Shown here one piece after another: positions 3,490 through 64,000 of a DNA stretch of 64,000 nt. The translations under genes were made by a program, and so were the position numbers. Location of the stretch: NCBI GenBank assembly GCA_000934385.1, contig KN880488.1, positions 62,001 to 126,000 on the forward strand, read 5' to 3'. The first letter of the stretch is position 1, and each line of letters starts with the position of its first letter. This DNA comes from Cylindrobasidium torrendii FP15055 ss-10 (lineage: Eukaryota; Basidiomycota; Agaricomycetes; Agaricales; Physalacriaceae). Under the pieces are notes generated by a model, which worked only from the letters and a program-made list of their open reading frames with translations, had not been told where the DNA came from and searched no databases.

Positions 3490-4952
3490 CTATGCTGCGA
3501 CAGGATAGTCCGTGTAACCCTTCTTCAACACCTCCAAATCGTCACCAGTCCCGTACAGACTCGTGTAGTCTACATTCATGTTGACCTCCTTCCCCAACTC
3601 AAACCGCTTCGCGAGGTCGGGGTTCGATATCCATTGCATCCCAAAGAAGACTGCGTCGAGTTCACCCCTTGCCACTGCTTGTGCAGCCTCTTCGCCAGTA
3701 TAGCCAGTGTTCCCAAACTTCAGGCTGTGCTTGATGAGAGGCGTGTACGACCCGATAACATCGTGGGGCGTCCCTCGTCGCTTCCCTACAGATAGAGTCA
3801 GCAATGGGTGGGCGCATACGGCGAGGACAGAATGTACCGTCGAAAACAGGGTCGATTGCCTCTCCGTAGCGGGCTAGAACAATGTATGCAAGCTTCAACT
3901 TGTCCGCCTCAGTGATGAAGTAGCTGAATGTCTCCAGAGTTTCCTCCAACGGCATCCTAATCGTTCGTATTAGACTGGAAATCGGAACCTGGCAATTTGG
4001 AACAACCAACCCCATGTCATTATAGCCGCCAGTGGGACTCAGCTTGATGCCGACACGGTCAGGGCCCCAAACATCCACAATCGTCTTCAGCACTTCCAGT
4101 CCCAGTCGCGAGCGGTTTTGGATGCTTCCTCCCCACTGGTCGGTCCGCTGGTTTGACGAGCTGTCGAGGAATTGGTGGATCAAATAGCCATTGGCCCCGT
4201 GCACTACGTGGGTCGCTTGTCAAGCAAGTACGCAATACAGCAGAAGTTAACACACCTTCAACGCCATCAAAACCAGCTTCCTTGGCGTTGATAGCTGCCT
4301 GTTTCCAGATCGGAAGGAGCGTCGATGGGTCCTCGATAGCGGTCGGTGTCACATAACCGGGCTCACCCTCAACGAGGCGGAATTTCCCACCGCGCGCAGA
4401 AATGGCTGACGGTCCATACACGGGCTTTAGGCCGCATAAGCAGATGATGGCTCGGTGAAAGAGAAACGCCCTTGCCTTTCCAGCTTTGATTTGTTCCGAT
4501 GCGTCGGGATGGCTAAGACGACCTAGATGCCACAGCTAAAGGAGGTGAGCCAAGGAATCGAAATGCAGGAAATTATCACGCACCTGAGCAAAAATCAATC
4601 CGCCTTCAGCGTGAACGGCTTCGGTGACCTTCCGCCATCCTTCGACATGGTTTTGGGACCAGATTCCAGGTGCATGCTCCCATTCAGTTCTTTGAGTACG
4701 CTCAGGACCATAACTGTCGACCGAGAATAACAGAAATTACCCTTGTTGTTCGACTAGAACGCCCTCGGTGACAATGAGCCCAGCAGCGCCAGCAGCGCGC
4801 TGGCGATAGTAGTCGACGTTGATGGCATTAGGTATACTTGTTGGAACAGAGCGGTTTCGCGTAGTTGCAGATACTCCGACACGATTCTTCAGGGTCAAGG
4901 GACCGAGTTGAAGAGGCGAGAATAGAGGGGCAAGGGATGTCGGAGTAGTCAT
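3490..4952 (-). CDS. NADH:flavin oxidoreductase of the Old Yellow Enzyme family, spliced
   Basis: FMN-dependent ene-reductase fold. The N-terminus has the family opening LFSPLQLGPLTLKNRVGVSA and DYYRQRAAGAAGLIVTEG. Later exons carry LWHLGRLSHPDASEQ (near 4480-4540), YGPSAISARGGKFR, the HGANGYLIHQFLDSSSNQR block followed by TDQWGG and NRSR, KLSPTGGYNDMG, and GMQWISNPDLAKRFELG near the C-terminus. The order and spacing match 12-oxophytodienoate reductase/NemA-like members of about 370 residues. The ATG at 4952 (MTTPTSLAPLF) is the first that gives the canonical start; a longer TTG-led frame was ignored. A TTATAA motif lies about 60 bp upstream. The natural substrate cannot be told from sequence; relatives reduce activated alkenes and serve in secondary metabolism or stress. 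It is transcribed in the same direction as its left neighbour, but fungi rarely use operons, so no functional link is implied. Confidence 0.9.
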
Positions 4953-5509
4953 AACGAGGATTTCAAGACGATGAGGATTGGAGCTGGGGGACAAGAGCTC
5001 AAATCCAGTCCTTATAAGCCTATCTAAACATCAAAGATTGGGATGCCTATTGTGCCTCCATTGAACGGGACTTAGCAAGCCACACGGAAGAAAGACCTTT
5101 TTTCCGCTTGCAGGTGATGAGAGTGGGTAGGTGCTGCTCCGAATGCGCAGGACGCCAATATGTCGAAACTGATGAAGAAACAATTCTCAATGGCGCCGCG
5201 AGGGGGAGCGCATATGCTTCTGAGTTGAGTTGCGACCGAGTTACGACCTCGAGGCCTGTGGTTGTCGGCTGATCGGGCCGATGCTGGAATTGATCGAAGA
5301 TACGCAAAGTTTGTTGCCTTTGAACGTACATCTCTCCGACCAATGTTTGCATCCAAAACAACTACCGTCTAATACCTGGCGCTAGTTGCGTCTCAATCGT
5401 GGGAATCCAGCGGTAATACGTTGCAAACGGCAAGGATTGAACGTCAACAATAAATATTCCTTGACAAGCATATGTACATTTTCTCCATTGGATCATATAA
5501 TATCTTTCT
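4953..5509. other. Intergenic between OYE-like and Lyc1-like gene A
   Basis: About 560 bases; upstream region of the leftward oxidoreductase and 3' flank of the Lyc1-like gene. Apart from the TATA-like motif at 5012-5017, nothing recognised. Confidence 0.5.
5012..5017 (-). promoter_or_regulatory. TATA-like motif of the OYE-family gene
   Basis: TTATAA lies about 60 bp upstream of the leftward ATG at 4952, a normal fungal TATA-to-start distance. Motif and distance only; no transcript evidence. Confidence 0.35.
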
Positions 5510-6826
5510 CTAACACCAGCAGTACCTTCCTTTCGTTAGTGCCGGTGAAATGCATCAAAATATGCAAGACTCACTTTTGGTTATACAACCAGGCGACACT
5601 GTCTGGCTTCTCGGGACCATACCACTTGAAGGAAGGCAAATTCCTCGTCCTCTCTTTATGTTCAAATCCAATCTCGGCGGCCGCATCTTTCACAACCTCC
5701 GGCATATTCCATATCTCGATGTCCTTCAATCCATGTTTCGCAGCGACTGCGATAATACCAAGCAATGCGCTCCTCCCACCCTCCGCGGACGACGCGCGAA
5801 ATCGAGTCACCGTGAGTCCGTTGGGCTCTTTGAAAGCCTTCGCGCCGCTGAGAGTCCAAGCAATGACTGTATCTCCGCCTTCGGATACCGCCGCAGACAC
5901 TTGCATAGGTGGTTTGACCGCGTCGAAGAGGCAACTTACGATGGCGCGCTGATATTCCTCTACTCCTCCGGATGGGAGTATCGAGAAAGCTGCGCTACCT
6001 GTGTCTTTGGCCTGTACGCTCACCTCCGCAGTAACAAACCGCTTCTCGTCCTCCCAAAGCGCCGCCATTTCTTCGAGTCGGACGCTACGCCATCCTTGCG
6101 GGAACTCAGAGCCGGAGGAGGCGACCGTCTCGTCAGGAATGGTATAAACGCTCGACTCGGGCTCTCGAAGTACCCATCCGACCGTGTGGTCCTCTCCATG
6201 CCCTTCCGGTTGAGAGTATGGGGCACAGGTCGCGTAAAATTTGGGTCCAATGCCGCTGTACAGAACCGAAAACAGCGCAGGCTTGAAATCTTGCGGACGA
6301 GAGAGCCCTTCGGGGAGTGTCTGTGAGCCCAGAATCTCGTGCAGGAGGCGCATCATGAGCGACGCATATCCTTTGCCACGGTTCTGCGGTGGGGTCAATA
6401 CAGCCATGATCGCGTATGATTCCGATTCCTGAGGCTCGCTGTCCTCGGCGCGTTTAACGAGCGCAGTGCGCCGATACCTAAGACTGTGTTAGGGTCTGTC
6501 TAGCACGCTCCGTCGGCATCAGAACTTACACTGAACAGGAGCATTTGAACTCCAGGGTGGTTGGATCGTTACGTGGCGCAAGAACCCTAAATACTCGAGT
6601 AAGTCTGACTGCTCATCGAGGGTCTCTCGACTGACCATCGCGTTACCCTCCCTTCGCTTGCATGAGGTAGCACGGAAAGAGCCGCATTGCCAGCCGCAAA
6701 CTCGTCGATCGATAACCCGTTTGGGACTCCCCATTGTTCACCCGCGCGATGGACGTATACTAGCTCTTGCTCTGGAGTCGCAGGAAAGAGGCTGAGGTAT
6801 GGAAAAGTGTCTTGATCTGTGGACAT
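5510..6826 (-). CDS. Lyc1-like lysine N-acetyltransferase, paralogue A, spliced
   Basis: GNAT-fold protein resembling yeast Lyc1 (lysine N6-acetyltransferase of lysine catabolism, described in Yarrowia). It starts MSTDQDTFPYLSLFPATPEQ and has the acetyl-CoA loop NRGKGYASLMMRLLH and the conserved end DIEIWNMPE, EIGFEHKERTRNLPSFKWYG. The longest frame stops at 5571 with YNQK, but a 49 bp intron (5526-5574: GTGAGT donor, CACTAAC branch, AAG acceptor) joins it to a 16-nt last exon reading YCWC-stop. Paralogue B at 12563 ends FCWC through the same structure, so I extended the gene to 5510. Other introns match B too: one splits the Trp codon before VL, another sits just before YRR. It has the same overall length as B (roughly 390-400 residues). 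The real substrate is not proven. A MITE-like element sits directly upstream of its TATA-like motif. Confidence 0.85.
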
Positions 6827-51360: not shown

Positions 51361-54300
51361 ATGTCTGCCCCAATCCCGACCAAGCGACCAGACCTTCACC
51401 CGCACGATGATGGCGCACTCAAGAAACGACGCAAAGGCGCTACACGGTTGAGCTGTGCGGAATGTAGACGGTAAGCGCCCGTAGAAAGCGGGAGTAAGCC
51501 AAAGACTCATATCCATTATTCCCATTAGATTGAAGTTACGCTGTGATCGCACGGTTCCCTGCAGCTCGTGCGTAAAGAGAGGTTGTGGGGCCATTTGTCC
51601 CGATGTACGTTCATATGGTATTGTGCGCTTTGCCCTGTTGAGCCTGCGTGTTTAGGGTTCGCTTACTACCGGACAAGGCAATCGGTGAGCTCATCAATGG
51701 GCGATCAAGTAAGGAATAAGTACTCAACATGCCTTTAGCTTTGTTCTAGCGTCGACAGAGGAACTACATGGGAAAATATCCGAATTGGCGACGCGGGTGC
51801 GCGAGCTAGAGGATGCGCTGAGGGCGTCCCACAGTCGGATGTCGAATGACCCCCACCCATTGTTGAAAGAAGACCTCCTTCGTATTAAAGCGCCCTTGCA
51901 GCGTGAGCCGGCACATCAGCGGAACGCTACCCATGACCCTGGAGAAAGAGAAGAAGAATCGAATCCAGATGTGGTCGATGCTTTTGGAACGCTCTCACTT
52001 AGCCTGTCTGGCCACGCCAAGTACTATGGTCAGACGGCCAACTCATGGGTGCGTTTCTCGACGCGGCGCTTCTTTGACTTCTGGCTCATCAGTGGGGCAG
52101 TATTGGCTACAGAATGAGCAGAACGAAGAACCAACCCAATACAGGGATCCCGCTGCTAACCTTGTTGGGATCCTACCACAAGAGATCCTTCAGCGCGCCG
52201 CCGCCTTCCCGGTCACTCCTGGACTGCATGCCACTTCCTCTGATAGCGATCCGGCTTGTATTCAAAATTTGCTGTGGTACCTCCCCGAGGCCCAGAGGGC
52301 AGCTGAGCTACGAGATATCTACTATCGACATGCAGCTTGGTTGTACGGCGCTTCCCCTTTCCCACCTTCCCGTGCTTAGCTGATTTGTGGCAGACACAAT
52401 CCCATAACCGAAGAGTCATTCGACTTCGAAGTGTACCAACAATTTTACGGCCAGATAGCATCCCCGGTTCTGGATGATCCACTGCTTGCACACCGTCTTT
52501 CTGTGATGTTCTTGGTGTTGGCCATTGGTACCCACATGGATCCGTCGCGTCCAGGCTACTGCACAGAAGCAGAGAAGTACTTCCAACTCGCGCGCGCAGC
52601 GCTGTTCAGCGATTCTTTCGTCGATGCCCCGACGGTCAATGCGGTACAGGCTCTGGTGAGATCCATACCATCGGGCGATGCCAATAAGGCTGACTGCTTG
52701 GCTTACAGTATTTGATGACATTCTACCTATTCTTGGCTGATAGACATGGTACGGCGTCTGGCACTCGTTGGGCGTTTATGGGGTTGGCCGTGAAAATGGC
52801 AGAAACTGTGAGTCATCCCTTACACAACAGGGTGAATGGTTATACTGACTGCCGTTAGATTGGTCTTCGTCAGTTCTGTGACTATCTAGCTGTCTGCTTT
52901 CTTGCTTACATCCCATAGACCGGGACAGTGCACGATGGGAAGGCATTGACCTCCATGAGACGCAACGCCGGCGCGAGCTCTTCTGGGAAATGTTCTCATA
53001 CGACTCCTGGCAGGCCCTCACGCTTGGTCAACCATCGTCCTTCGCCCTTTCCCATTTCGACTGCAAGATGCCTCACAGTAGCCAGCCGTCCGACGAAATG
53101 AGTTGTATGTAACCTCCTTGTGAAGTGTTTTCTGCAATACTCATCAGACTTAGTTTACGCTTGGAAGCATCGGTTCACGTCCGAGTGCATGAGCCTGCTG
53201 CATGACCAGGCTTTCGGAGCTCGGACCCCGACTTATGCCACCGTTCTCCAGCTAGACCGCAAGCTACGTTCGTTCCCTGTACCTCCAATTCTGCAAGTGG
53301 CCGGATTTGGGAACTCGGAAGCGCGACCAGGTGGATTCCCAGATACACCTATGCTCACTCTCCAACGCCATATTGTTCTTGCTATCCGAGAAATGAGTGC
53401 GTCTGAGTGTATTGACGTAGCTAATAGGATATTTGTTGACGCTCTTTGCAGACCTCCTCTATCTTCACCGCAGCTTTTTCGCTCGTGCCATCGGCGACAG
53501 TCCCAAGGACCCGCTTGGTAGCCCATACGGAACTTCCGTCATTGCTGCATACAGGAGCGCTGGTTCCTTGGTCGCACTTATGCGCAATCTGCATGCTCAG
53601 CTAAAGCAGCCCGCTGAGCGTCTGTGGTTCCTTTGGGGACATATGTTTTCGTGCTCGGTATGTTTCCCTCAGAGTCTAGCCTATCCAGCTCATTTTCGTG
53701 TAGATCGTCCTTGGATCTATAGTGACGCGATGTCCGTCTATGAGCTTTGCTCCCTCAGCTCTTGTGCAGCTTGACTCCGCTTGCGAACTGTTTTCAAAGG
53801 CCGCAGATGGTTTCCGTGCCCATAAAGTCTTGGTGCGCTTATTCTAGCGACTGTCGGACTCAGTACTCACAAGCGCTATGTAGGACATCATGCTTGCTCT
53901 ACAACGGCGTGCCCACCATAGCCTAGAGGATTTCCGTCGAGGCTTGATCCCTGGCTCACCAGGATCGCGGGGATTGACTGTCGAGACCAATGGAAACGAT
54001 GAGCTCGCCATGCTTGGAGGACGCTCCCGGTTGGTCAAGCGCGAGGATCAAGCACCGTCTCCACTCATCCTCGACCGTTCACCAAACTCCCTCAACCCTG
54101 TCGTTCCGTTGCCGCTTTCGACGACGATGCATATGGACTCAAATGCGCTCGAATATCTGAGCTCGTTCAATACAAACCAGCACCAGCATGTCTATCTGGA
54201 TCAACAGCAGACTCCGGCGTCCGCTTCGTCTCATGGGAGCGGGTCATATCATGAGATGGATCTGTCGCCGGCGAGTCGATTCGATTCGATGAATGGGCAC

Positions 54301-58258: not shown

Positions 58259-59002
58259 ATGTTCACCCGCTACTTCGCCATTCTTGCCACCGCTGCCACC
58301 TCCGCCGTGGCCTTCGAGGTCGTTGCACCCAACTCCCAGACCTGGTGGGGTACGTGCTGCCTGCCCCATCGCCGTGCATGACAGCTGACACGGAACAGTG
58401 GCCGAATCCCAGAACGTCTTTGCATGGACTTGTAACGCGGAAGACCACCCGACGGAGTTCACCGTCTTGTACGTTTGTGCCATTGAGGGATAGTACTGTC
58501 TGTTGAACGTGGGAACAGGATCTGGAACACAGACCACTCTCTGATGGCGGCCCCTCAGGCCATGTACGTCGTCTATCATTTCTTTTCGTCCATCTCCCTG
58601 ACCTTCATCAAAGCATTGCCCAGCAGGCCAACTCTGACTGCTCCCACCTCCTGACCAACCAGCAGGTTGGTTTCAAGGCGGGAACGAACTACATCGTGCA
58701 GCTCGCCGACACCCTGAACAACACCCATGTGCGTTGCATTGTGCACACCCCAATTAAGCTCAGCCCGTGCTCATGAAACGCAGGTCTACGGCGAGTCTGA
58801 GCCGTTCGAGATCAAGGACTCTGGCGCAGCATACCCGACGACCACCCCCGGCCTTGAGTCCACCACTGCTACCGCCGCCGGCTCAGCCACCGGAACCTCT
58901 TCGGGCTCCAGCTCCTCTTCCACACCTGACGGTGCTGCCCGCGCGACCGTCGGCATGGGTCTCGGTGCATTCAGCGCCATCCTCGGCTTCCTTGCCCTCT
59001 AA
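58259..59002 (+). CDS. GPI-anchored Ser/Thr-rich cell-surface protein (Kre9/KNH-like), spliced
   Basis: Small secreted wall or membrane protein. Signal peptide MFTRYFAILATAATSAVAFE. The body has the Kre9/KNH style start VVAPNSQTWW, then AESQNVFAWTCNAEDHPTEF TVL, IWNTDHSLMAAPQAI, DCSHLLTNQQVGFKAGTNYI VQLAD, VYGESEPFEIK. A Ser/Thr/Gly/Ala tract (TTATAAGSATGTSSGSSSSS) follows, then a hydrophobic end (ATVGMGLGAFSAILGFLAL) fitting a GPI-attachment signal. About 180 residues; four short introns that fit the frames. Start ATG 58259, stop TAA 59000-59002. Role probably in beta-glucan wall assembly by family. Confidence 0.85.
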
Positions 59003-59649
59003 ATGCCCGGTCATGGAATAATGGAATAATGGGATGTGGATATGATGGGCTGGACATATATGCATGACTTGTGATCTTCCCGGTTTTCTTGAGCTTTTAT
59101 TCCCTAGCCATTCTGATAAATACCCCTACACTCGTTTCTATAATGCGCGCCGTGACTATGAACTGTCTTGGTATGCTTGATATCCTCGAGGGTCTTCACT
59201 GGCAAGGCAAGTGGGAATCATGAATCATGGCTTTGATCTCAGGGTCGCTTCCATGCAAAGTGTCGGTTGGACCTCGGTGAACTGTGAGGTGAGAGTTTGA
59301 GGGTAGCGTCCTTTACGGGTCTGCGGAAATGACATTCAGTCTGACAATAACCTTTCGATTTCATCAGTCAAGCAGGAAACCTGTTTGGTTTATTGATTGG
59401 GAAACCCGATTTTCTACTTATCTATGGCCACCACCGGCGCCTATATTGGCGGCCCTTGACGGAAGCGAAGGCAATCATTGCGGTCCCGCGTTGCGTTTCG
59501 ATGGTGAAAGTTCCTGCTTTCGTCTCTCTTTCCAACCTCCGCCAGTGGCGACTCCGCATCAGCACAAGATATAGCAGTGCCCGTATTTGAATTTCTTGCA
59601 TATAACGCTCACTGGCATCCTATTTCTCTTTTTGCCGCTCTTCTTGGAT
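59003..59649. other. Intergenic, about 650 bp
   Basis: Between the GPI-protein gene and zinc-cluster array gene A; the 5' region of the latter. No gene seen. A frame that begins with TTG just before 59650 continues into array gene A but lacks an ATG. Confidence 0.5.
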
Positions 59650-61515
59650 ATGTTTGCATCGGTCCCAGGGCTTCAGGCGGGCTGTGACCCTCTGGCATGC
59701 GCATGGGAAGGATGTTGGTACACAGCTGACAAGACTTTGGAGTTGCTAGAGCACTCCCAGCACTGTGCGTACCGTCCTAATGGTTGGGACCAGCCCGGTT
59801 ACGGTCCAGGACATCCCACACACGGATATTCCGCCCAACGGGGCGCCGAAGAGCCTAGCTCCCGCTGCGACGCGTCTGGGTCGGGAAGCATCTCTAGCGC
59901 GTTTGCAACGCCACCTGATAGTGATGGGGGGTACGCACCGAGTCCTGCCAGCTCCCTACCTGTTCGTCGCGTAACATGGCAGAACGACGAGGAGGATGAT
60001 CGCCCTGCACACGTGATGTCGACCTCCGGATCGACGGCACGCCCAACCGGAATGGAAGAATGGGGACAAGTCCCAGCAGGCTCTTCCTCGCCGTCTTCGA
60101 CTACTGCTTCTTCACCGTTTGTGCCACTGAGTCCTCCGGAGTCCACTGCCATCCAGTTTCGGGTATACGATCCTCGCGAAGAATCAAGTAAACCGAGCTC
60201 ATCCAAATCGTACTCTGACGACGAATCCCGAGATGAAGACAGTCCAGAGCTATTTTCCTCGGCATCTGCATCACTTATCAATGGACCGGCATCAACTTCA
60301 CGGCCGCCGCTCCCTCCTACAAGCTATTATTCCGCCCCACTTTATCCAGATGTCGAGGACGCACATGTGCCCTATAAGTCGGCCTCGGCCACAGCGTCAC
60401 CTAGCTCCGAGGATAACCATCCTGCCCGTCGTAAAATCGCATGCCTTCCTTGTCGGTCAGTTACCATTTTCTCCTACTTCCTGAACGAACATTTACGCCA
60501 AACGTGCAGAATACAAAAGCGGGTATGCGACATTGCTCAATGAAGAACATTCATTCTAAGACGCTGGTTCAATAGAAGTGTGACGCTGTGCGCCCCGTGT
60601 GTGGACATTGCGACACTGCGATGCGTGCACCGCGCAAGCCAGGCGTACCAGAGCTCCAATGTGTATACGACACGCGACGGTCGCAGTCAAGAGACCTCGA
60701 AGATACCCCAATCAGCCAGAAACCGAAATCTCATCGAACAAATGCATGTCTGTCCTGTCGGTAAGCCTTTCCTTACCTTCCGGTGGATAAATCACACAGG
60801 ACTTAACGAGCATCGTTTAGGAAACTAAGAAACGTGTGTACCACACAGGTGAGGATTAACTTCAAGCTAATGATTGTGTAGAAATGTGACGGAGTGCATC
60901 CCGTATGCGGGCACTGTGTTACTCTACTCCACGATCCAAGTGCGGCCAGCCAACAATGCGTTTACCATGAGCGTGTTAGTAATCCATGTAACCGATGTCG
61001 GTGGGTGTCGTTCTCTGCTACTAGCCTGGATACGTTTGACCGAGACTTGCTTCTAACAGGACACAAAAAACGGTGCGATCCACTACCCGTTTGCTTCTCA
61101 CGAGCAACACGCTAAAGTGCTCTTGATTTTACTAGAAGTGCGATGGTGTGAAGCCCTCGTGCGAGAGATGCATGCACAACGGCTATAAATGCGAATACAG
61201 AGACAGCTCCAAGGGTGCTGCCCGTAAGGGGGTTCCAGAACCTTATGTCAACTCGACCAGAGGGTTCGCCTGCGTATCCTGTCGGTGCGTACATTCCTCT
61301 GCAGTTGGACCAATACTTAAGGCATATGTAGGCAGTCGAAACGAGTACGTGACAGTGTATACATTGTTCGGTATGCTGATAATGCGTCCCAGAAATGCGG
61401 CGGCGAACTACCAACTTGTGCACGCTGTAATGAGCGCCACAAAATCTGTGTTTACCCTGCGAGACAAGCGTATACCCCAGGAGAAACAACAAGAGATATG
61501 GATGTAGGAGCATAA
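59650..61515 (+). CDS. Tandem Zn2Cys6-array protein A: C2HC finger plus four zinc clusters, nine exons with four 13-nt microexons
   Basis: 477 residues; exons 59650-60455, 60510-60522, 60576-60760, 60821-60833, 60882-61000, 61060-61072, 61136-61284, 61332-61344, 61393-61515, every junction keeping phase. The N-terminus has a C2HC finger (C17-x4-C22-x12-H35-x3-C39, ending CAYRP). Residues ~45-255 are a Ser/Pro/acidic linker. Then four clusters with C-x2-C-x6-C-x6-C-x2-C: starting at C265 (last gap x16), C331 (x13), C375 (x6) and C429 (x6). Each is cut after CxxCR by an intron, a 13-nt microexon, and another intron, then KCD or KCG. Basic residues between the second and third Cys (RIQKRK, RKLRNK, RTQKTK, RQSKRK) are those of a DNA-binding zinc cluster. 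No middle TF domain or signal peptide. A convergent paralogue is at 61664. Function inferred only as nucleic-acid binding. Confidence 0.82.
60510..60522 (+). other. 13-nt microexon of zinc cluster 1, array gene A
   Basis: CAG before it and GTATGC after it. Completes Arg269 and adds I-Q-K-R. Flanking introns are 54 and 53 bp. Without it the C-x2-C-x6-C spacing fails. Confidence 0.75.
60821..60833 (+). other. 13-nt microexon of zinc cluster 2, array gene A
   Basis: TTTAG before, GTGTGT after. Completes Arg335 and adds K-L-R-N. Flanking introns are 60 and 48 bp. Confidence 0.75.
61060..61072 (+). other. 13-nt microexon of zinc cluster 3, array gene A
   Basis: CTAACAG before, GTGCGA after. Completes Arg379 and adds T-Q-K-T. 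Flanking introns are 59 and 63 bp. Confidence 0.75.
61332..61344 (+). other. 13-nt microexon of zinc cluster 4, array gene A
   Basis: TGTAG before, GTACGT after. Completes Arg433 and adds Q-S-K-R. Flanking introns are 47 and 48 bp. Confidence 0.75.
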
Positions 61516-61663
61516 CATGATGATAAACATATGTACCATAGGTTGCCCAGAATGGGGCTTTCCAGCTGCGAATGCCTTGTTCATTGCGAAGTATTCGGAT
61601 CCCAAGTCCATCGTGCATGTAGAGGGTATAGGTCGTGGAGGTCGTATGTCCATAAGTGCGTAT

Positions 61664-62967
61664 TCAACCATCTGAGGCAGGAAGCATGCTCGGCGTGTCC
61701 GTTTGCTGCAAGGATAACTTCCGTCTGCCCTTCCCTCGAGAGTTCTCTGCGTACACGCATTCGAGAACCCGTCCCAATCTGCTGCCCCTTTGGATGCAGC
61801 GTCCACAGGAGGGCATCGCACCATCGCATTTCTGGAAGGGAACGTGATAGCATCAGTGGCGCACGCACTTACAGGAAGGGCACATTCACGGACCGTCTTC
61901 AGCTTTCTGAACAGATGCACGCTCGGGATCAGTGAAGAGCGTGGTATCGGGAGAAAGACAAGGCACTTACCGGCATGCATTACAGGCCGTACTCTTAGGG
62001 CCTGCGCCCGGCGCCCTCGCGCTAGGTATCCGTGCAGGCACGTAGATACACTCCTTCGTTGGATCCCCTTGAGGCTGCTGTTCGGCATACTGAACACAAT
62101 GAGAGCAGGGCCTTTCGCCGTTGCACTTCTGTCAGAGGTATGAGTTACGTGCGCTTGCTGGGGTGGGCGAAATAACCGACTATTTTGCGCTCTCTATCCC
62201 TTGAGTCAGTACGGCGCCTCAGCGAGCATGGCTTCGGAGGCTTACCTGCACGGGACACAGGTCCCAAGGACGCGAGACGGACCTTCTTCCAAGTCTGGCC
62301 TATCTTCTGTAATCTTTGTTGGACCAGGTAATGTATTTCGACGGTGCGGTGGCTGAAAATCTGAAGGGTCGCGCAAGGTAGAATACTCCGATCGTGATGA
62401 AGAAGGAGAATCTGAATCGTAATCCATAGGTCTTGCTCCTGCCACAAGAACAGAGTGCACCGTCGAACGCGGTGGCCATTGTAAGCGTGGTGGGGTGGTT
62501 TCCACTGCTTCGTCCCCATCTGTCCAAGGAAGTTCGTCTGCAGTTCTTGAGGGATAAGATGGCTTTGGCTGCAGCGGCAATGGTAGACCGCCTCTCCCGA
62601 GCTCCTCCATCTCCCTTGGCTGCGTCGGGCCAGTGGCAAGGGTCACGTGTAATCGTCGATCGCGGTCCTCCTCATGTCGCCACGCGTGTGCTATTGGCGC
62701 CATAGTTGTACCGTCCGTACGCGAGGTATAGCCGTTGGGCGAGTGGGTCGGCCCCCCGCCAGCAGGATCCCAGCCATTCACACGTGCAGACGACCCGAAC
62801 GCCTCTAAATCAAGTCCAGAGAGATGGGGCTTGTTCGGTGCGGGATCGTCCAACGCAGTCTGACGGTAGGCGCAGCTCCTGGAATGGGTGTGCACTTCGG
62901 AGAGTTCCCGTGCCGTGAAATCACATTTGGGCCAGAAACACGCCCAGGGAGGTCGGCTCCAGGACAT
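61664..62967 (-). CDS. Tandem Zn2Cys6-array protein B: C2HC finger plus two zinc clusters, five exons with two 13-nt microexons
   Basis: 357 residues; exons 62246-62967, 62181-62193, 61971-62128, 61894-61906, 61664-61831, all in phase. It has the same plan as the convergent gene A: a C2HC finger with identical spacing (C10-x4-C15-x12-H28-x3-C32, again followed by AYR), a disordered linker of about 200 residues, then CVPCRERKIKCNGERPCSHC (cluster at C237, last gap x15) and CNACRKLKTKCDGAMPSCGR C (cluster at C294, last gap x12). Cluster 1 has x5 instead of x6 between the third and fourth Cys. The tail (ENSRGKGRRKLSLQQTDTPS) is basic. Start is the ATG at 62967; the longer frame opens with TTG. 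Donor of the first microexon is GTCGGT and of the second GTCCGT, weaker than usual. The stop codons of A and B are about 150 bp apart. Confidence 0.8.
61894..61906 (-). other. 13-nt microexon of zinc cluster 2, array gene B
   Basis: On the minus strand GTTCAG precedes and GTCCGT follows. Completes Arg298 and adds K-L-K-T. Flanking introns are 64 and 62 bp. Confidence 0.72.
62181..62193 (-). other. 13-nt microexon of zinc cluster 1, array gene B
   Basis: On the minus strand GATAG precedes and GTCGGT follows. Completes Arg241 and adds E-R-K-I. Both flanking introns are 52 bp. Confidence 0.7.
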
Positions 62968-64000
62968 TATTCGTGAGATGCACAATGCGAGTGACGGCGA
63001 AGCGGTAAAGTCAGAAGAGAGGAATCTTGGACCAGCAGAAGCGTTAGCAGGAACGGTGGGGGAAGTAGTGGTAAGAGACGAAGCATTGATGCCGATCGGT
63101 CAGAAGGAGTCCCGTATTAGGGCTGTTCGCGGTCGGGGACTTGGACAGGAACTCGTGTGGCAACAACCCGGTCTGCGCAGGACCCCGGTCATTTGCGCCT
63201 ATTGGCGCAGCGCGCTCAAGCTCCAAGCGTGCTCGTGGAGCACATGATGAAGCAATAATTTGATTGCTCGCGAATTGTTTGATTACAGAATTGTTTGTTG
63301 GGTTTGAATTGACTGATTGTTTGATGGTTCTAGGAAATCCCCGCTTATAGCTTCTTTGGTCGAAAACTGTACCTGTTTGTCCCATTCCTGGCGAGTTTTG
63401 TGAGTAAACGCAAGCCCTTGTCGACATAAACATCGGATTAACCGACTTCCGGGGAAGGACACTTGTTGATGCAGGGAGCAAATCAGGATAAACAACCAGT
63501 GGTATTGTACAGGGATGAAGAAAGCACATACAACGACGTACATGCGAACAAACTTCAAAAGACTGTAGCGGGAATTCCCCTCGTAGTGTGAGCCTGGATT
63601 GACCCGATAAGAAAGTCTTGTCTTTTGTGGAAAAAAGATACGCACCGCTTACCAAACATTGCCTCCACCGAGTTATCCGTCTTTGTGCGGCTCCTAATAA
63701 CACCAAACTGCCGGAGAAAATTGCGTGCCCTCGCACCAAGCAGCGGACATTTCCTTCGAGCCTGCATTGACAGAGCATCGACCAATGACGAAATTGCAAT
63801 CTGAAATTTGGAATAGCGAGTTTGGCGTCGGTTCACGAAGCGTAGAGCTAGCTCTAACCCAAGGACTTGAGGTTGTCGCCAAAGCATAATAGCTCAAGGT
63901 ATACTGTATACCGTATACACGCTCGAACCGCATATAGAAGGTCGAACCCCACTTCCTTATTCGAGATCCTCAGGCAAATGCCGATTTTAAAATTCCTTTA
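62968..64000. other. Right-end region, no gene recognised
   Basis: About 1 kb upstream of array gene B. A low-complexity TTGTTTGATTG-like run lies at about 63250-63330, and a palindrome GGTATACTGTATACC at 63898-63912 is followed at once by another GTATAC (63913-63918). The frames here have no family features. Part of a gene beyond the edge cannot be excluded. Confidence 0.4.

Follow-up and report, generated by a model that had tools for sequence, protein, structure and literature searches.

Zn2Cys6 proteins form a very large family of fungal regulators and the common model gives each of them one cluster and dimerisation. GAL4, PPR1, LAC9 and HAP1 carry a single cluster together with a dimerising coiled coil and a middle region, and the cluster itself has the form C-x2-C-x6-C-x5-12-C-x2-C-x6-8-C (PF00172). 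In GAL4 the residues Lys17 and Lys18 are presumably those which contact DNA.

In the present study two convergent genes, encoding the proteins p1 and p2, were analysed in a window of 64 kb, by which the whole stretch of DNA under study (64,000 nt) is meant. The array of p1 matched GAL4 (E = 1.7e-5), PPR1, LAC9 and HAP1 in the PDB (1d66, 1pyi, 1cld and 1hwt, respectively) and weakly RSC3 (E = 0.013), and the shared features are the six-cysteine cluster and its basic loop. However, p1 and p2 contain four and two clusters, respectively, placed C-terminally after a C2HC-type finger, and the typical Gal4-type plan, in which one cluster is followed by a coiled coil and a middle region, was found in neither. 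Judged from their sequences, both are likely multivalent DNA-binding regulators.

Structure of the two genes and their products

Four clusters in one gene and two in the other, the lengths of both open frames, twelve introns of 47-64 nt and microexons equal in length and phase had been proposed in a first-pass annotation, and all of these were reproduced by independent splicing, the frames to the exact residue (Table 1). Every one of the twelve introns is GT-AG and lies within that size range, and all six microexons are 13 nt long and occupy the same place and phase in each cluster: the upstream intron splits the Arg codon of CxxCR after its second base, the microexon supplies the third base of this codon, and it ends directly 5' of the Lys codon in K-C. 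The microexons had been called identical, which is correct for length and phase, whereas the six sequences differ among themselves.

Table 1. Features of the convergent gene pair; positions are those of the 64-kb window.
Feature	Position	Strand	Description	Evidence
Gene 1 (p1)	59650..61515	+	9 exons, 477 aa, four Zn2Cys6 clusters	independent splicing; Pfam
p1 N-terminal finger	59698..59766	+	C-x4-C-x12-H-x3-C, residues 17-39	
p1 acidic low-complexity middle	59785..60429	+	residues 46-260, 61% S/P/T/G/D/E, net charge -15	
p1 cluster 1	60442..60662	+	residues 265-302	
Microexon of p1 cluster 1	60510..60522	+	13-nt	
p1 cluster 2	60747..60959	+	residues 331-365	
Microexon of p1 cluster 2	60821..60833	+	13-nt	
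p1 cluster 3	60987..61192	+	residues 375-402	
Microexon of p1 cluster 3	61060..61072	+	13-nt	
p1 cluster 4	61271..61449	+	residues 429-456	
Microexon of p1 cluster 4	61332..61344	+	13-nt	
Spacer between p1 and p2 stop codons	61516..61663	.	148 bp	
Gene 2 (p2)	61664..62967	-	5 exons, 357 aa, two Zn2Cys6 clusters	independent splicing; Pfam
p2 cluster 2	61757..61984	-	residues 294-327	
Microexon of p2 cluster 2	61894..61906	-	13-nt	
p2 cluster 1	62048..62259	-	residues 237-272	
Microexon of p2 cluster 1	62181..62193	-	13-nt	
p2 N-terminal finger	62872..62940	-	C-x4-C-x12-H-x3-C, residues 10-32	

All six clusters were recovered in the two-intron arrangement with the 13-nt microexon by a cluster finder, which joins CxxC to K/R-C-x5-6-C-x2-C through none, one or two introns; unspliced or single-intron readings of them were rejected, as none was returned. 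The same finder also read p1 cluster 4 with a 9-nt microexon, and under looser loop rules one extra 13-nt alternative with less canonical loops appeared in each of p1 cluster 4 and p2 cluster 2. Seven clusters were found in the real window, six of them with the 13-nt microexon, and 300 dinucleotide shuffles of the window yielded no match of any kind. The seventh cluster (51539, + strand, CAECRRLKLRC...) is situated 8 kb away, and its one intron falls at another point of the cluster. In the spliced proteins Pfam Zn_clus detected four stretches in p1 (E = 5.3e-29) and two in p2 (E = 6.9e-17), both proteins lying above the cut-off for PF00172. Clusters 3 and 4 of p1 fit the form of this family in full, and the remaining four fit it except for a longer last loop, with 16, 13, 15 and 12 residues between Cys5 and Cys6 in p1 clusters 1 and 2 and p2 clusters 1 and 2, respectively. 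The loop from Cys2 to Cys3 is basic, with an Arg after Cys2 and a Lys before Cys3 in all six.

Finger, acidic middle and basic C-terminal array follow each other in this order in both proteins. The middle of p2 consists of 56% S/P/T/G/D/E with a net charge of -8, the array regions carry net charges of +22 (p1) and +12 (p2), and the tails beyond the last Cys comprise 21 and 30 residues, respectively. Residues 14-352 of p1 aligned with residues 7-315 of p2 at 29% identity (E = 2e-29, aligned without filter or composition adjustment), and on these sequence grounds p1 and p2 are divergent paralogues over their whole length; this homology and the N-terminal finger are new beyond the first reading of the locus. 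When residues 1-72 of p1 were searched against the genome, two places were returned, p1 and p2 only. Whole p1 gave eight matches in the genome, including itself, p2 (E = 0.07), C225 (E = 1.2e-4), where the matched part is the zinc-cluster stretch, and C329 (E = 0.09), and whole p2 returned itself, p1 (E = 0.015) and C249 (E = 0.02). A recent duplication within the array was rejected, the only direct repeat of at least 20 nt in 58800-64000 being one of 26 nt at 73%; the best inverted match in the same interval is 74% over 50 nt.

Zap1-like zinc sensors possess paired CWCH2 fingers. In the PDB the finger of p1 was closest to yeast Zap1 (1zw8, E = 8.4e-4 over 25 residues), with Krueppel-like factor 15 (E = 0.0037) only a little behind, and the C-x-W-x-x-C of the Zap1 fingers recurs in p1 and p2. 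However, each of the two proteins has one such C2HC finger only, its last ligand is Cys and not His, and the remainder is dissimilar to Zap1, the likeness of which may serve as a lead and not as a sign of membership.

It had been remarked in the first-pass annotation that Zn2Cys6 proteins normally have one cluster and a middle TF domain; the 148 bp between the convergent stops leave no room for such a domain. A pattern search of the 1.8 kb that follow the last cluster in each of the two genes found no middle-region-like block, and a continuation of the genes into a downstream middle domain was rejected on both grounds.

Microexon clusters and arrays elsewhere in the genome

The window's own genome (29.3 Mb), in which it lies on contig C58, was scanned with a stringent DNA pattern of the microexon layout, which returned 17 places versus two for a reversed control pattern. 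Five of the 17 belong to the p1/p2 pair, whose p2 cluster 1 is missed by the pattern (an Asn codon follows), and the other 12 include ten Zn2Cys6 clusters with the same microexon, C25 and C168 being the exceptions. A Pfam search of the genome gave 112 places when E values of up to 10 were admitted; the Zn2Cys6 family was also matched, under the cut-off, in one of 14 control genomes. When pattern places, Pfam loci and further loci were taken together, the same microexon in the same phase was found outside the window in at least 22 clusters at 17 loci, a lower bound because 64 of the 112 Pfam places were never read. Ten extra loci had been selected for a Pfam match starting near K-C, and their outcome (two with the microexon, four with the second intron only) is for this reason no random sample; four of them (C32, C61, C15, C7) and C57:17.9k gave no finder solution. 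C72 and C411 contain microexon clusters additional to the main list of 20.

A further 13-nt reading was also admitted in four of the 22 clusters (C12, C41, the first of C4:148k and the second of C451). In the last of these (L052 reverse complement, about 5464-5600) two 13-nt microexons are possible, with the loops SKKR or VRRQ, of which the latter would require a 39-nt intron and may be due to chance. The 26 clusters formed by the pair and 20 others have 52 introns of 47-69 nt (mean 54) with one GC donor; a GC donor is located 5' of the microexon in the first cluster of C249 (L042 1361-1504).

Both flanking introns were also encountered singly, the second alone at five loci (C11, C169, C269, C88, C165) and the first alone at two (C98, C226) as well as in cluster 1 of C288, there with a GC donor. 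Since each occurs alone, the microexon is best explained as what lies between two intron positions of older date, which in the simplest account would have been kept, lost singly or copied with the clusters. This account does not cover the sole layout, because a different single intron is present in C329 and in the window at 51539; cluster 4 of C288 and C225 have no intron. As the microexon is common to a wider set of Zn2Cys6 genes, no array-specific origin is needed.

In view of the microexon clusters at 17 loci and the arrays found at other loci, a plan peculiar to the pair is not supported. Two microexon clusters in tandem were detected at five loci (C4:148k, C4:240k, C4:244k, C249, C451), and C298 is probably a sixth, with one microexon cluster and, where the contig stops, the second half of another, the first half of which was not recovered. 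C288 presents five canonical Zn2Cys6 clusters in one reading path (L036 4279-5228; contig about 18278-19227) with four introns of 45-56 nt at mixed places, the first of them GC-AG, and no 13-nt microexons; a start codon was not found for this gene, which by eye adjoins an apparent phosphoglucomutase end. Although it resembles p1 and p2 in its tandem clusters, it is not among the eight genome matches of p1. At C329 two CNFCR-type clusters 582 nt apart on the - strand (L034 about 3632-4640), in both of which the sole intron is placed differently, apparently belong to one gene, and a third cluster of this type lies near C329:17.5k. One cluster was recovered at C195, and a stretch upstream of this microexon cluster (L050 reverse complement, about 3950-4200) may be a worn first cluster, which may make the locus a case of array loss.

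Unlike p1 and p2, the two-cluster microexon genes (the five tandem loci and, in part, C298) are followed by a middle-region-like block, doubtful in C451, and the finger region of p1 was not found in them. This block, G-L-C-L...G-D...A-x-x-L, which we take to be the middle region of such genes, was detected by pattern downstream of four of seven loci (C4:148k, C4:244k, C298, C195); at C249 and C4:240k it is dubious by pattern and visible by eye, and C451 gave no pattern match. Four pieces of the block yielded no Pfam match above the cut-off, and the label derives in part from its repetition at several loci. In a tree of the 26 clusters, for which 37 columns were kept, one of 23 forks was supported, and the pair's clusters were grouped weakly with the first clusters of two-cluster genes (82/68). 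The earlier proposal that the array grew by duplication is plausible, with the order of events left unsettled by this tree.

Function of the arrays and competing explanations

The residue equivalent to Lys17 of GAL4 is basic in one of the six clusters of the pair versus 18 of the 20 microexon clusters compared from other loci (Fisher p = 0.0018, for a comparison chosen after looking), the two exceptions being C41 and the second cluster of C4:148k. It is basic also in C72 and C411, both outside the Fisher test, and in ten of 11 clusters of the two-cluster microexon genes, C298 being included in part. At the Lys18-equivalent, K or R was seen in all six clusters of the pair and in 26 of 26 overall. 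Given that the Lys17-equivalent is mostly non-basic, some clusters of p1 and p2 may lack the GAL4 mode of DNA binding, and the change hints either at an altered choice of DNA or at clusters which are out of DNA contact.

We lean towards the explanation that p1 and p2 are divergent paralogues within the Zn2Cys6 (Gal4-type) family in which several clusters in one chain would bind DNA, and in which this multivalency would take over from the coiled-coil dimer and middle regulatory domain found in ordinary relatives. The acidic middle might then touch the transcription machinery, the N-terminal finger might give an extra contact to DNA, protein or zinc, and the microexon would be a remnant between the two older intron positions, carried along in cluster duplication. 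Against this explanation stand the mostly non-basic Lys17-equivalent, the lengthened loop between Cys5 and Cys6 in four of the six clusters, and the different intron positions at C329 and at 51539.

It is conceivable, if rather doubtful, that the clusters are now mostly protein-binding or structural modules, at most one or two of which bind DNA, and that the protein serves ordinary Zn2Cys6 regulators as an adaptor or competes with them. A non-basic Lys17-equivalent in five of six clusters, with all cysteines and the Lys18-equivalent kept, would fit such modules, as would the lack of a middle-region-like block by pattern downstream of p1 and p2; however, both arrays are net basic, the Arg after Cys2 and the Lys before Cys3 are kept in every loop, and the two exceptional clusters of C41 and C4:148k are likewise without the basic residue.

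A splicing switch, in which skipping of a microexon shifts the frame and the position of the skip sets the number of clusters in the protein, is considered unlikely. Tiny exons are often skipped, and omission of these microexons loses the frame because 13 is not divisible by three: in silico, skipping microexon 1, 2, 3 or 4 of gene 1 left 0, 1, 2 or 3 intact clusters, and skips in gene 2 left 0 or 1, although frame loss is to be expected for any skipped exon of such length and the occurrence of the same microexon in genes with one cluster found makes an array-specific function unnecessary. Retention of a single intron kept the frame in two of twelve cases (the first intron of p1 cluster 1 and the second of p1 cluster 4). 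Similarly improbable is a class of regulators without dimerisation and middle domain in which splicing of the 13-nt microexons dials the number of working clusters and the length of the DNA site; such a dial is possible and not needed.

Over the stretch of 12 codons which starts at Cys1 and extends one codon beyond Cys3, the 15 pairs of the six clusters gave a mean pS of about 1.0, a rough value of which only saturation can be stated because some pairs exceed 1, and a mean pN of 0.26; synonymous differences in Cys codons were counted in 51 of 90 comparisons. That p1 and p2 are a decaying gene pair without present function is very improbable, for although one of the twelve introns lacks the yTnAy branch-like site which all others possess, the saturated synonymous sites, the 36 intact cysteines and the two long open frames speak against decay, with the caveat that cysteines were required when the clusters were picked.

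Gene predictors which bar 13-nt exons would break genes of this kind, and hence arrays, whose make-up differs within this one genome, and clusters with a DNA-contact loop encoded by such an exon may be under-reported. The arrays permit a clear test of cluster number and linker length, in place of dimerisation, as the basis on which DNA sites are chosen.
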